DNA of 64,000 bases, from assembly GCA_019638115.1 (NCBI GenBank), contig JAHBUK010000002.1, positions 193,867 through 257,866 on the forward strand. Reading direction: 5' to 3'. Position 1 is the stretch's first letter, and every line of letters starts with the position of its first letter. Positions 13,247-18,299 of the stretch are shown piece by piece. Position numbers and translations under genes: made by a program. Origin of the DNA: Flavobacteriales bacterium (lineage in GTDB: Bacteria > Bacteroidota > Bacteroidia > Flavobacteriales_F > PHOS-HE28). The notes under the pieces were generated by a model. That model had not been told where the DNA came from, did no database searches, and saw only the letters and a list, made by a program, of their open reading frames with translations.

Positions 13247-14407
13247 TCACCGGTATTTGAACCACGCCGCCATGAACGGGTTGTACGGCGCGTACACCGG
13301 TTTTCCACTCTGGGCGCTGTGTTCACTGATGTACACCAACTCGCGGTCGATCAGCGCTTGCAAGGCGGTTACCAGCGCGGCCGATGAAGGCAGGTCGTAC
13401 TTCTTCATGAAGGCGGAACCGGTGGGGGTGTCCACCTCGCCTTCCTTGGAGATCGCGGCGAAGAGGTCCCACTGGTTGCGGGTGAGTGCGCTGCGCAGCG
13501 TGGCCATGATGGCGTCCTGTTCCCGTACGATACGCAGCAGGATGTCCACGATGGTATCGCGCACTGGCGGGCGGCCATCAGCGAAGAGCCGGTTGAAGAG
13601 TACCTGCACGTAATAGGTGTGCCCCCGGCACAGGTCGTAGCAGAACAGTGCGTCCTCTTCCTTCAGGGTGCGCTTGTGCCGCTTGAAGATGGCCCGGGCG
13701 AAATCCGCGTAGATGCTGCGATCGATACGCTTCAATTCCACTTGGTCGGCACTGCCATAGAAGGGGTTCTTCGCGTTGTTGAAGAGGTCCAGCAAAATAT
13801 GGCGCTGGCTGCCGGAGAAGATCACGCGCACCTTCGAGTTGCGTTGCAGCTCGGTCCGCAGCACGGCGTCCATGCGGATGTCCCCGAACTCCGCGATCTG
13901 CTGGAACTCGTCGATGGCCAGGAAGATGGTGCGGTCCTGTTCGTGCAGGATGCGGAAGATCTCGCGCGTTGTGGCCGCATCCTTATTGGATCCTGCCCCG
14001 GGCCCCGACCCGGGGCTGCGTTCCAGACCGATGCTCGGCTTGCCGGTCAGCTCGTCCACGGTCACCACCGGACGCAGGGCACCGAACCAGGCCATGGCGT
14101 TCTTCAGGAACTGCTTTGGTGTAGGGTTCAGCGCCTCGTGCACGGCGTTCAGCAATATGGTGTTGAACTCGTGCGCATCGCGTGCCGCATAGATGTCGGC
14201 GAAGACGGTCCGTGCGCCGCGCACCTTGGTCAGCGTGTTGAACACATGGTGGATGAGGCCCGTCTTGCCATATCGTCGGGGGCTGTGCAGCATCACGTTG
14301 CGCCCGTTGCGCAGCGCCGATGCGATGGTGCGGGTCTCCTCTTCCCGGTCGCAGAAAAGTTGCGGCGAGAGGTAGGCGTTGACGGCGAAGGGGTTGTCGT
14401 TGGTCAT
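13247..14407 (-). CDS. AAA-type ATPase (archaeal/bacterial ATPase family, PF01637-like)
   Basis: A 386-aa protein from ATG 14407 (a GTG 9 nt upstream is possible). Walker A is HSPRRYGKTGLI near residue 42, Walker B is IFLAIDEFQQI near 165, and a sensor-like VIFSGSQRH follows near 198. The second half is helical with a winged-helix-like end (MKKYDLPSSAALVTALQAL). This is the MNS/STAND-related ATPase layout often found as orphan genes in accessory regions; roles in defence or DNA transactions are suggested for relatives but unproven. A GC-rich palindrome is inserted in frame at 13996-14015 (residues about 132-140). Confidence 0.8.
   Translation of the reverse strand: MTNDNPFAVNAYLSPQLFCDREEETRTIASALRNGRNVMLHSPRRYGKTGLIHHVFNTLTKVRGARTVFADIYAARDAHEFNTILLNAVHEALNPTPKQFLKNAMAWFGALRPVVTVDELTGKPSIGLERSPGSGPGAGSNKDAATTREIFRILHEQDRTIFLAIDEFQQIAEFGDIRMDAVLRTELQRNSKVRVIFSGSQRHILLDLFNNAKNPFYGSADQVELKRIDRSIYADFARAIFKRHKRTLKEEDALFCYDLCRGHTYYVQVLFNRLFADGRPPVRDTIVDILLRIVREQDAIMATLRSALTRNQWDLFAAISKEGEVDTPTGSAFMKKYDLPSSAALVTALQALIDRELVYISEHSAQSGKPVYAPYNPFMAAWFKYR
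13996..14015. repeat. GC palindrome inside the ATPase gene
   Basis: CCCCGGG (13996-14002) and CCCGGGG (14009-14015), extendable by one base pair, form a hairpin inside the coding sequence. It encodes the low-complexity peptide PGSGPGAG on the minus strand, between the two ATPase halves, and looks like a tolerated REP-type insertion. Confidence 0.6.
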
Positions 14408-14500
14408 GGCAGGCACCGTGGATATGCCCGCAAGTTAGGAAAGATTAGTAATGAAAGATTACTAAGCTTTGGTTACTGATCGGGGTGGACTGCTTGTCCA

Positions 14501-14932
14501 TCAGGGTCCGACCAAGCACTTCAGCGACCATTCGGGGCATTGGAACGGCAGGTCGGGCGACCATTCCAAGTGCCATTCGATAGCGCCAAGGAAGAGTAGC
14601 ATGAAAGCCGCGGATATCCCTGCCACGATGGCAAGTGCAGTGCGAATGAACCGGTCGGTGCGCGGATGGTTCCTGGCAGCGCGAAGGAGGCTCCATCGTA
14701 TCGTGATCGCAACCAAAGACCAGAATGCCAGGTCGATCAACAGCCCCTTCATGTAAAGCACGCCGCTCATGCTGTTCACCCAGGGTATGCTTGTGCGGTA
14801 GGGGAGCGGCAGGCCGATCAAGGCAGGGATGTTCTCGTCAGGGCAGGCATCCACACGCACCACGGTAATTAGGTCGGAGAACATCAGCGCTGCGGCCAGG
14901 AGCAGTGCGTAAAGGGCGGGGAGGAAGCGCAT
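14501..14932 (-). CDS. Hypothetical membrane protein
   Basis: A 143-aa protein with three or four hydrophobic segments: an N-terminal MRFLPALYALLLAAALMFSD, a middle LLIDLAFWSLVAITIRW and a C-terminal IVAGISAAFMLLFLGAIEW. It ends with a short loop containing two cysteines (FQCPEWSLKCLVGP). No family is recognised. The frame stays open far upstream, but that part is antisense-like junk over the fic gene. ATG 14932 is chosen because it starts a membrane segment. Confidence 0.6.
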   Translation of the reverse strand: MRFLPALYALLLAAALMFSDLITVVRVDACPDENIPALIGLPLPYRTSIPWVNSMSGVLYMKGLLIDLAFWSLVAITIRWSLLRAARNHPRTDRFIRTALAIVAGISAAFMLLFLGAIEWHLEWSPDLPFQCPEWSLKCLVGP

Positions 14933-14979
14933 GCCAGCAAGATAGTTCCGCCCGTCCGCCGGACAACGGTGGAAACAGC

Positions 14980-15852
14980 TCACTCCTCCTCGTAGTAGTA
15001 CGAGTGGTCGATACCCTTCATGTACATCTCGCGGCTGTCGATCTCGTCGGTCAGCGCGTTCTTCAGCAGCTTCTTCAGGAGGCGGGCGTCCACCGCGCTT
15101 TGGACCATCGCGTTCATGTAATCCTTCTTGCCGATGCGGCTCCAGTCCACGCAGCGCTTCAGGTGCTTCTTCAGCATCAGGTCCAACCAGATGCGCGTGC
15201 TGCGGCCGTTGCCATCCATGAAGGGGTGGGCCACGTTCATCTCCACATATTTGGCCACGATCTGGTCGAAGGTGTTCTCGGGCATCGCGTCGATCTGCTG
15301 CAGGGTGGTGCCGAGGAAGTGCGACGTGGCGAACTGGAAGCCGCCCTTGGAGATGTTCTTCTGTCTGATCTGACCGGCGAAAGGGTAGAGGCCACCAAAC
15401 AGGTAGGCGTGGATCTGCTGCAGGCCCTTGGCGGTGCCCACCTCGATGCTGTCGATGAACGAGCTCTCGAACAGGGCATAGGCCTTCGACCGGCTTTTCC
15501 CGTCCACGCTTTCCTCGCTGTGGGTGAACCACTGGATGAAGCGGTTCGCCTTCTTGCTCGGGAACTCCTTGCCCAAGGCGAGGATGCCATCGTGGTCCAG
15601 CACGTCGGTCAGGCGCCTCTTGCCGTCCGGCGCGAGCAGTTTCAACTGGGTAGTGGCACTAACCACTTCGCTGTTCTCCCGCTTCAACTTGGCCTTGAGG
15701 TATTTCCAGTAGTTGCGGGTCTTTTCGTAGTCGTCCTGGTCGGTCAGCACGGCCACGATGTCCAGCACCGAGAACCACCACTTGGCCTGCTCCTCGTCCC
15801 ACACGGCGCGGACCTCGCGATCGTCGAAGAAGCGGATGGAGATCTTGGTCAT
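14980..15852 (-). CDS. Fic-domain enzyme with Bro-N/antirepressor-like N-terminus
   Basis: A 290-aa protein. Residues 1-100 ([16 protein letters not shown], then [13 protein letters not shown], then YWKYLKAKL) resemble the Bro-N/phage antirepressor domain, which binds DNA. Residues 120-270 are a Fic fold with the complete active-site motif [12 protein letters not shown] at 209-220. Fic proteins transfer AMP or other nucleotide parts onto target hydroxyls. I see no class II N-terminal inhibitory helix. The C-terminal segment [17 protein letters not shown] could contain the control helix or a family-specific tail. No separate small antitoxin gene adjoins it. It sits in the accessory region with the ATPase and DUF4238 genes. 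Confidence 0.88.
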
Positions 15853-16987: not shown

Positions 16988-17074
16988 TCAGCAAAGCGCA
17001 TAGGCACAAGCCTTTTCCATCTTCGCCTTCCCATTCTTCTTCTCATCGATCGGCTTCCTCAGCACGATCTTCGA
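16988..17074 (-). pseudogene. Degraded duplicate of the clpB 3' end
   Basis: Read on the minus strand from 17074, this stretch is open to a TGA at 16988-16990 and encodes SKIVLRKPIDEKKNGKAKM plus 9 more residues. The last residues of the full ClpB (gene ending at 18310) read [19 protein letters not shown] and then NGKAR. The two agree residue for residue through KIVLRKP.DEK, and the nucleotide match covers about 40-60 nt. There is no start codon or upstream clpB sequence. The DUF4238 gene lies between the two copies. Confidence 0.75.
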
Positions 17075-17139
17075 TCCCCATGCGAAACAGTATGGTGTAG
17101 CGCCAGGTCAAATCAAGAGGTTGTAAATCTTAGGTTCAC

Positions 17140-18039
17140 ATGAGCATTCCGAAGAACCATCACTTTGTGCCGCGAGGCTATCTGAAGCGCCTCGTTATGC
17201 CCGATACCGAGGTACACTACGCGTGGAAGGAGTCGAGAATCATCAGTAGTACATCCGCCAAGAAGCTGTGCAGTGAGATCGATGGCTACAAGCTGGTGAG
17301 CGTGGCACCGGAGGATGCGTTGATTTTGGAAACCACTTACAAGAACCTATGGGAGGATCACTACGATGAGGTTTACAAGACGCTGGTCGATGATACGACG
17401 GTCATCATAGATGATCGTCTACGGCAAATCGTAGTAGGCACTGTTTGTTCGCTTCTTTTCCGCTCCCAGCGTATAGTGAATGCAGTAGATGGCCTTATGC
17501 GCCAGAGCATTGCCTTCATGGCAAATGCACGGGCGCTGGATGGGTCACAACCTAAGGTTGCGGAGCTTGATGGCAAGACGTATCAACTTGAGGGGAAAAC
17601 GGAGGATGATCTATGGGCGGAATACCAAGCGAACACGAACAATGATGGACTTCTTGTGCAGCAGTTCATCACTGGTGTGAGGCTCCAACAGGTTCGGTCA
17701 CGTGATGCGATATGTATCACCAAGGTCCATGGCACGACAGGTTTTATTTCTTCGGATAACCCGACACGGATACACTATCCACCTGACGCAGGGATCGTAG
17801 CGCCCTTCAACGTCACGGATGTATTGACACTACCGCTGAATGAGTCTTATCGAGTGGAACTCGTGCCCGGGATCCCTAAGGTAGAACTCAAGCGCATCTA
17901 CAGGTTCGAGTTGAGTGGGTCTGAGGCCGAGACCGAGGTGCTGGAGAACAACATCCGGCAATTCAATGAGGCGGAGAGAATGGTGCTTGGGCGCAATGAA
18001 AGTCTGGAGTCCTTTTTTGGCCAGGTGCGATCTCGATAG
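17140..18039 (+). CDS. DUF4238 domain-containing protein
   Basis: A 299-aa protein whose opening PKNHHFVPRGYLKRLV is the hallmark of DUF4238, a family of unknown biochemical activity found patchily across bacteria and often in accessory DNA. Other visible features are a helical centre (VVGTVCSLLFRSQRIV near residue 110), TGFISSDNPTRIHYP near 200, and a helical C-terminus. There are no signal peptide or membrane segments. The gene is AT-richer than its neighbours, reads against them, lies between two clpB 3' ends, and is followed immediately by a structured element. It was therefore probably acquired horizontally. Function unknown. Confidence 0.8.
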   Translation: MSIPKNHHFVPRGYLKRLVMPDTEVHYAWKESRIISSTSAKKLCSEIDGYKLVSVAPEDALILETTYKNLWEDHYDEVYKTLVDDTTVIIDDRLRQIVVGTVCSLLFRSQRIVNAVDGLMRQSIAFMANARALDGSQPKVAELDGKTYQLEGKTEDDLWAEYQANTNNDGLLVQQFITGVRLQQVRSRDAICITKVHGTTGFISSDNPTRIHYPPDAGIVAPFNVTDVLTLPLNESYRVELVPGIPKVELKRIYRFELSGSEAETEVLENNIRQFNEAERMVLGRNESLESFFGQVRSR

Positions 18040-18042
18040 GAC

Positions 18043-18262
18043 GCCTAATGTTGTGGGTATTGCTCGCTGCGTGAGGGGGCGCAACGGCAGCCCGGGGTAG
18101 GCAGGGCCTTGCAGCCGCGAGCAGAGAGGAGGCCCCGACGGTAGGAGGGGACCCCGGAGCGCCGCGGGTGCTGGCCCGGACTAGTCCGGCTAAAGCGAAG
18201 CACCCGGCCCCGCCCTCATCCGAGTAGCGAAACCGGGCGCAGCCCACTGGTTGTCATTTAGA
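18043..18262. other. Long GC-rich structured element (attC-like ends) between DUF4238 and clpB
   Basis: It begins 3 nt after the DUF4238 stop. Outer ends CCTAATG..GTGGG and CCCAC..CATTTAG can pair imperfectly. Inside are TGCTCGC/GCGAGCA (18061-18067 with 18117-18123), CGGGTGCT/AGCACCCG (18165-18172 with 18199-18206) and the perfect palindrome CCGGACTAGTCCGG (18176-18189). The first bases, GCCTAAT, come close to the integron R'' box RYYYAAC, but the length and internal branching exceed a usual attC. It could be a structured RNA, a recombination site or a REP-type element. Confidence 0.55.
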
Positions 18263-18279
18263 GGGCGGGGACACGCCCA

Positions 18280-18299
18280 CCCTTCGACTCTGCTCAGGG
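18280..18299. repeat. REP-like palindrome downstream of clpB
   Basis: CCCTTCGACTCTGCTCAGGG has complementary ends (CCCT/AGGG, extended by C..G pairs) and contains the TTCGAC..GCTCAG core found at three other places in this window. It lies 10 nt beyond the clpB stop codon. Confidence 0.65.

Follow-up and report, generated by a model that had tools for sequence, protein, structure and literature searches.

The window, a 64,000-nt stretch of a Flavobacteriales genome, contains a structured, GC-rich repeat in the space between an accessory gene for a DUF4238 protein and clpB. The element starts 30 nt from the DUF4238 stop codon, and its other end, at 18278, is 31 nt away from the clpB stop codon on the opposite strand. 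These ends were set at 18069 (GCGTGAGG) and 18278 (GGGACACGCCC) by comparing copies at other sites, and the element was scored with R1, a covariance model built from 33 copies, all of them long. The following features were assigned at the locus.

17020–17072, minus strand: a second, degenerate clpB 3' end on the far side of the DUF4238 gene (E 3e-7, with 78% identity across 51 nt)
17140–18039, plus strand: DUF4238 gene (PF14022, E 4.6e-17), the accessory gene, on the GCGTG side of the element
18069–18278, plus strand: structured repeat of 210 nt, GCGTGAGG...GGGACACGCCC (R1 120.4 bits, E 4e-20, full length over model positions 1–167)
18069–18073, plus strand: 5' strand of the closing helix P1, GCGTG, the terminus on the cargo side
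18075–18206, plus strand: long interrupted arm (helices 2–8), its basal part corresponding to the Flavo-1 core and its apical part expanded
18208–18270, plus strand: 3' side hairpin, enlarged here, with CCCCGCCC (18208–18215) pairing with GGGCGGGG (18263–18270)
18272–18276, plus strand: 3' strand of P1, CACGC, followed by CC (18277–18278) as the element end on the core-gene side
18280–18299, no strand assigned: short palindrome CCCTTCGACTCTGCTCAGGG, outside the element, between it and the clpB stop codon
18310–20967, minus strand: clpB, the conserved gene on the CACGCC side

Beyond the DUF4238 gene, the accessory stretch of the window (13247–15852) also encodes a Fic-domain protein with a Bro-N domain (14980–15852) and an AAA ATPase (13247–14416). 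Short palindromes similar to that at 18280–18299 were observed after, beside or inside several other copies of the repeat (L005, L018, L027; CCTGCCTACCGGCAGGCAGG), as if the elements attracted other small repeats.

The original prediction had placed a structured GC-rich element at 18036–18264, directly after the DUF4238 stop codon. The element is real, structured and GC-rich (72% GC), but its correct extent is 18069–18278. All of the strings quoted in that prediction are present, namely TGCTCGC (18061–18067), GCGAGCA (18117–18123), GCCTAAT (18043–18049), CGGGTGCT (18165–18172), AGCACCCG (18199–18206) and CCGGACTAGTCCGG (18176–18189), together with the two bracketing strings GGTTGTAAATCTTAGG (17119–17134) and GGTTGTCATTTAGAGG (18249–18264). 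The fold proposed from them is not the conserved one, with TGCTCGC lying outside the element and the CCGGACTAGTCCGG palindrome forming no helix of the conserved structure. The sequence GCCTAAT, taken as an R''-like edge of the element, also lies outside 18069–18278 and is absent from other copies. The supposed direct repeat bracketing the gene matches at 11 of 16 positions and appears to be due to chance, given that 74 pairs of 16-mers in the two stretches agree at 11 or more positions; one of its copies falls within the element's own 3' hairpin. Given that the minimum free energy of the element was no better than that of shuffles of the same composition (z −0.69, with 46 of 200 shuffles equally good, a score that is uninformative at 72% GC), stems seen in the single sequence mean little and comparison of copies decides. 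The structure described here thus rests on covariation and not on minimum free energy.

Repeat family, conserved fold and relation to Flavo-1

A DNA search of the window's genome returned 12 matches to the repeat, and R1 found 21 copies in that genome, a census made by model search only; these are dispersed over contigs, with only one in the window. Of 35 genus genomes, counting that of the window, a corresponding DNA search detected the repeat in 31; 23 genomes from other families gave no match. With R1, copies were found in 37 of 39 genus genomes, with up to 21 dispersed copies per genome, and weaker relatives were found under strict filters in 16 of 155 sampled Bacteroidia genera. The element is therefore not unique, and a repeat family of this lineage, which the original prediction had listed among several options, is established by these counts. 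When 84,980 species genomes were scanned for an exact pattern, repeated matches were confined to uncultured Flavobacteriales or Bacteroidia genomes (MAGs); the remaining matches were scattered and due to chance, apart from one in a contig that had been binned as Planctomycetota. This contig (L260, CAUJKE010000391.1) carries a copy of 114 bits at its end, for which binning error or transfer is possible. Pattern and sequence searches revealed no copy in viral contigs and no match in plasmids. Close inverted pairs of elements, with GCGTG ends facing each other 40–150 nt apart, were seen at L211, L224, L244, L252 and L263, in two other Bacteroidia genomes.

In a model alignment of 54 distinct copies, 96.2% of cells were paired and both sides had changed in 30 of the 41 pairs. 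None of 500 shuffles of this alignment approached the real pairing, and slid structures reached at most 47%. RNAalifold, applied to a structure-free MAFFT alignment, also yielded 41 pairs, with compensatory changes in 21. The closing helix P1 was 99.2% paired over the 54 copies, with both sides changed in three of its five pairs, and its variants include GCGTG/CACGC, GCGTA/TACGC, GCGCC/GGCGC and GCGTT/AACGC. The 3' hairpin, which follows the long arm inside P1, is variable in sequence and is shorter at the same place in other copies. Judged from these alignments, the pairs of P1, of the long arm and of the 3' hairpin are shown to be kept by selection, and the very strong covariation answers the concern that the element might prove to be unstructured when copies were compared.

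The composition of the pairs bears on the nature of the folded molecule. G.U accounted for 1.4–2.0% of paired cells in the family, with a G.U to A.C ratio of about 2:1, compared with 8.1% G.U in 11 tRNAs from the same loci, a small sample obtained with a tRNA finder that admits no A.C pairs. Such a constraint, indifferent to strand, is more in keeping with a DNA hairpin than with an RNA, without proving DNA. The structured RNA that the original prediction had envisaged is thus supported with regard to structure, by covariation, and disfavored with regard to RNA, by the rarity of G.U.

In the window's genome, short members of the family (about 100 nt, 45–51 bits with R1) scored 34.9–39.3 bits (E 4e-5 to 6e-4) with the 76-nt Rfam model for Flavo-1 (RF01705), for which the gathering cut-off is 42 bits. 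Copies in other families scored 55.9 and 44.8 bits, above the cut-off, and the R1 and Flavo-1 models match the same segments at L063, L064, L066, L067, L276, L277, L278 and L273. A covariance-model search with Rfam gave no match of the window copy to RF01705; a match of the window element to KCNQ1OT1 (E 0.09) was attributed to chance. Because the window copy itself lacks a match to RF01705 and the short copies of its own genome fall below 42 bits, we refer to it as related to Flavo-1 and not as a member: on these model scores, it is an expanded, GC-rich relative that falls outside the family as defined by the curated cut-off. The two types share a basal arm with repeated AGCGGa.AGC internal loops (GAUuGaAGcGGAA...AgCGgAaAGCggGA), a Bacteroidota host, dispersed copies and the absence of a fixed neighbor. 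The window type differs in that it has, beyond what the Rfam model describes, the 3' hairpin and an outer helix, P1, with covariation, and in that its apical arm is greatly enlarged and GC-rich, with the result that it escapes this model altogether. The restriction of Flavo-1 to Bacteroidota was borne out for the family in the pattern scan, chance matches and the Planctomycetota-binned contig aside.

Polarity of the copies and junctions at their ends

The copies are polarized between genes, with the CACGCC end directed toward the ends of housekeeping genes and the GCGTG end toward variable accessory genes. In 71 of 107 distinct copies, the CACGCC end faced a stop codon, which lay within 40 nt in 33 of the 71, and in 32 it faced a start codon. 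Copies were found in all gene orientations, including 14 between divergent starts. Housekeeping families that recurred on the CACGCC side were methylmalonyl-CoA mutase (five), DinB (four), aldehyde dehydrogenase, CarB and ClpB (three each) and TRCF (two), counts that include some same sites in different species. Families on the GCGTG side hardly recurred and include TIR, McrBC, ApeA, ORF6N and a CDI immunity family. GC content over 1 kb was 0.585 on the GCGTG side and 0.628 on the other (paired p 3e-7), a difference that in part reflects gene ends versus spacers. Copies thus lie at varied genes such as carB, mutase and dinB, and the constant tie to clpB that would have weakened the original prediction was not encountered. 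The cassette-like layout of a gene plus a structured site that it had recognized does recur, with fixed polarity between a core gene and variable cargo, but the attC-like edges attributed to it are unsupported.

At a handful of sites, similarity between species was shown to stop at the foot of P1, so that a given core gene with its element adjoins unrelated DNA, or a given cargo with its element adjoins an unrelated gene. In the window's genome, an 8.3-kb metal-efflux segment that ends in an element is 96–99% identical to segments in seven other species (G018, G020, G033, G013, G002, G061 and G010), and this similarity stops exactly at the last base of the element. The next gene is carB in the window's genome, whereas in the others it is a mutase gene truncated at its 5' end. 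No element was found at the other end of this segment (L281:7227). At three core-gene sites (L068/L087, L147/L241 and L047/L052), the two copies share gene and element and lose similarity 0–1 nt from the first base of GCGTG, beyond which the neighbors are unrelated at both the DNA and protein levels. At 79–89% identity, an alignment that ends at the element edge can reflect mere divergence of the spacer beyond it, unless the neighboring genes differ as well. In the best cases, similarity between species breaks within 0–2 nt of the element termini, such sharp breaks being limited to a handful of independent sites. At the clpB site, the copies of G003 and G029 have only the gene and the 3' part of the element in common, and in G010 the orthologous element is cut midway, with different cargo beyond the cut.

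The bases flanking the elements are also constrained, with a pyrimidine at −1 in 75 of 78 copies (p 2e-20) and at −2 in 66, and A or C at +3 in 68 (p 4e-11). No target duplication was apparent at the copies, observed values being close to those for shuffled sequences for lengths of 2–8. Both flanks were conserved in 31 orthologous pairs, indicating that most copies are stable. No clean empty site that would demonstrate insertion of the element alone was found; at ffh and ribonucleotide reductase genes, the element is present in few genomes and the spacers are too diverged to define an exact empty site.

Partial copies of core genes accompany the elements. In seven congeners, diverged copies of the clpB 3' end that are longer than that of the window lie 0.1–7 kb beyond intact clpB, with accessory genes in between. 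The 3' end of a ribonucleotide reductase gene is duplicated with one element at each copy, and a carB duplicate extends over 1.5 kb at 91% identity. The presence of such partial copies beside elements suggests that homologous recombination probably takes part at these sites. The clpB 3' end is a hotspot of accumulation, as seen at 17020–17072 of the window and at L128, L129, L130, L131, L132, L133 and L134. A metal-efflux island at L281:2370–15523 (G000:C1), which encodes a CadA-type ATPase and CusB/CusA-like proteins, has inverted elements at its flanks, as well as a 91% duplicate of the 3' part of carB, and occurs in other species at 96–99% identity.

Possible roles of the element and candidate enzymes

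We tentatively favor a reading of the element as a folded-DNA site for integration or joining of acquired genes, served by a putative enzyme. The tendency of the repeat to lie where foreign genes start behind a housekeeping gene suggests a DNA joining point and not a small RNA. The element would act in the form of a folded DNA single strand, such as may arise during replication or uptake, and a putative single-strand–acting transposase or recombinase would cut at the P1 foot. DNA would be joined after pyrimidines (−1, −2) and before A or C (+1 to +3), so that the element would be a place where acquired genes land and are joined behind housekeeping genes, resembling an integron in its effect while standing outside the integron family. 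The partial clpB, ribonucleotide reductase, carB and mutase copies beside elements suggest that homologous recombination may complete or repeat integration. A wider version of this proposal, which we regard as doubtful, would make Flavo-1 and its expanded relatives together folded-DNA attachment sites and not RNAs, belonging to an integron-like system of cargo capture in Bacteroidota in which acquired genes, some of them for defense, are joined behind housekeeping genes at the P1 foot. Flavo-1 has been listed in Rfam since 2010 as a small RNA of unknown function, and the Rfam model lacks the outer helix, the exact ends, the junction bases and the fixed polarity between core and acquired genes that the expanded relatives reveal. 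If these elements are DNA joining sites, they would explain how clpB, carB, ribonucleotide reductase and mutase genes of this lineage come to have accessory genes stacked behind them.

A passive dispersed repeat, similar to a MITE or REP, that spreads itself and does nothing for the cargo is a somewhat unlikely alternative that would nevertheless mark junctions, given that it would offer multicopy homology for recombination and lie in insertion-tolerant spacers behind gene ends. The dispersed intergenic copies, which number up to 21 per genome, their terminal inverted repeats (P1), the close inverted pairs in two other genomes and the core-gene remnants, which show frequent homologous recombination at the sites, are all compatible with such a repeat. 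It does not account for the absence of target duplication or for covariation along the whole arm, which exceeds the need of inverted ends, and the best-case breaks fall at the termini and not inside, although that in G010 does fall inside. We consider it unlikely that the element is a structured RNA, either an sRNA or a 3'-UTR element produced by read-out of a neighboring gene. Rfam assigns RF01705 the type sRNA, Flavo-1 was judged to be probably an RNA and not cis-regulatory (Weinberg et al. 2010, PMC2864571), copies are placed beside stop codons, and slightly more wobble is tolerated on the plus strand. However, G.U is scarce and the strands are nearly symmetric, copies occur in every gene orientation, including those between divergent starts, and the neighbors differ and are unrelated. 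In the transcriptome of F. psychrophilum, moreover, Flavo-1 matches were indistinctly sense or antisense and many were untranscribed (PMC9723704).

Integron attC sites carry the terminal boxes R'' (RYYYAAC) and R' (GTTRRRY). An accessory gene with a site behind it that can fold and is about as long as expected invites comparison with them, but that the window element is the attC site of a gene cassette is scarcely credible: its P1 ends vary under covariation and contain no R''/R' boxes, none of the 39 genus genomes encodes an integron integrase (TIGR02249) above the cut-off, the best candidate lacking model positions 179–239, and copies are dispersed singletons without arrays. The lineage also carries attC-type sites of another sequence, located near a 400-residue IntI-like tyrosine recombinase in five genomes. 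This recombinase, which lacks the IntI patch, is highly improbable as the partner of the element. Genomes with its gene hold more copies (median 11 versus 3, p 1e-5; p 0.0013 in genomes at least 90% complete), and the gene adjoins an R1 copy in G124 and G078. The correlation is unspecific, however, since the trend is also seen for RAYT genes (p 3e-4), and G060 and G020 lack the recombinase yet have 11 copies. The gene, present in 22 of 39 congeners, is also commoner in the class than is the element (120 versus 40 of 295 genomes), and it has its own sites nearby.

The RAYT (Y1) genes, too, were rejected as mobilizers, with an R1 copy in none of six RAYT loci and none near RAYT genes by coordinates in the single-contig genome G010, and with copy number correlating with RAYT as it does with the recombinase. 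Among known systems, the window type resembles attC in being able to fold, in lying between an accessory gene and the next gene and, probably, in being recognized as a single strand. It differs in having two hairpins under one closing helix, in lacking R/L boxes and IntI, and in occurring as dispersed singletons with a conserved gene on one side. With REP/RAYT systems it shares intergenic structured repeats in many copies, and the bases at its junctions, which show no target duplication, are reminiscent of single-strand transposition. Window-type copies are 150–210 nt long, compared with 20–40 nt for REPs, have no RAYT beside them and lack the GTAG/CGTC tag (PMC3733652). Bacterial MITEs are likewise small, dispersed and without a gene, and have inverted ends; the window type is distinguished from them by the absence of target-site duplication and by covariation of the whole arm.

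One contig end (G000:C2:1–3859, locus L305:1–3859) encodes an IntI-like tyrosine recombinase of 399 amino acids along with small, AT-rich genes; an attC-type site, GGTTTGGC...GCCAAAC, lies at L305:1640–1790. This locus is an integron-like array of the lineage, separate from the window element, and similar sites lie near the recombinase gene in G010, G025, G146 and G078.
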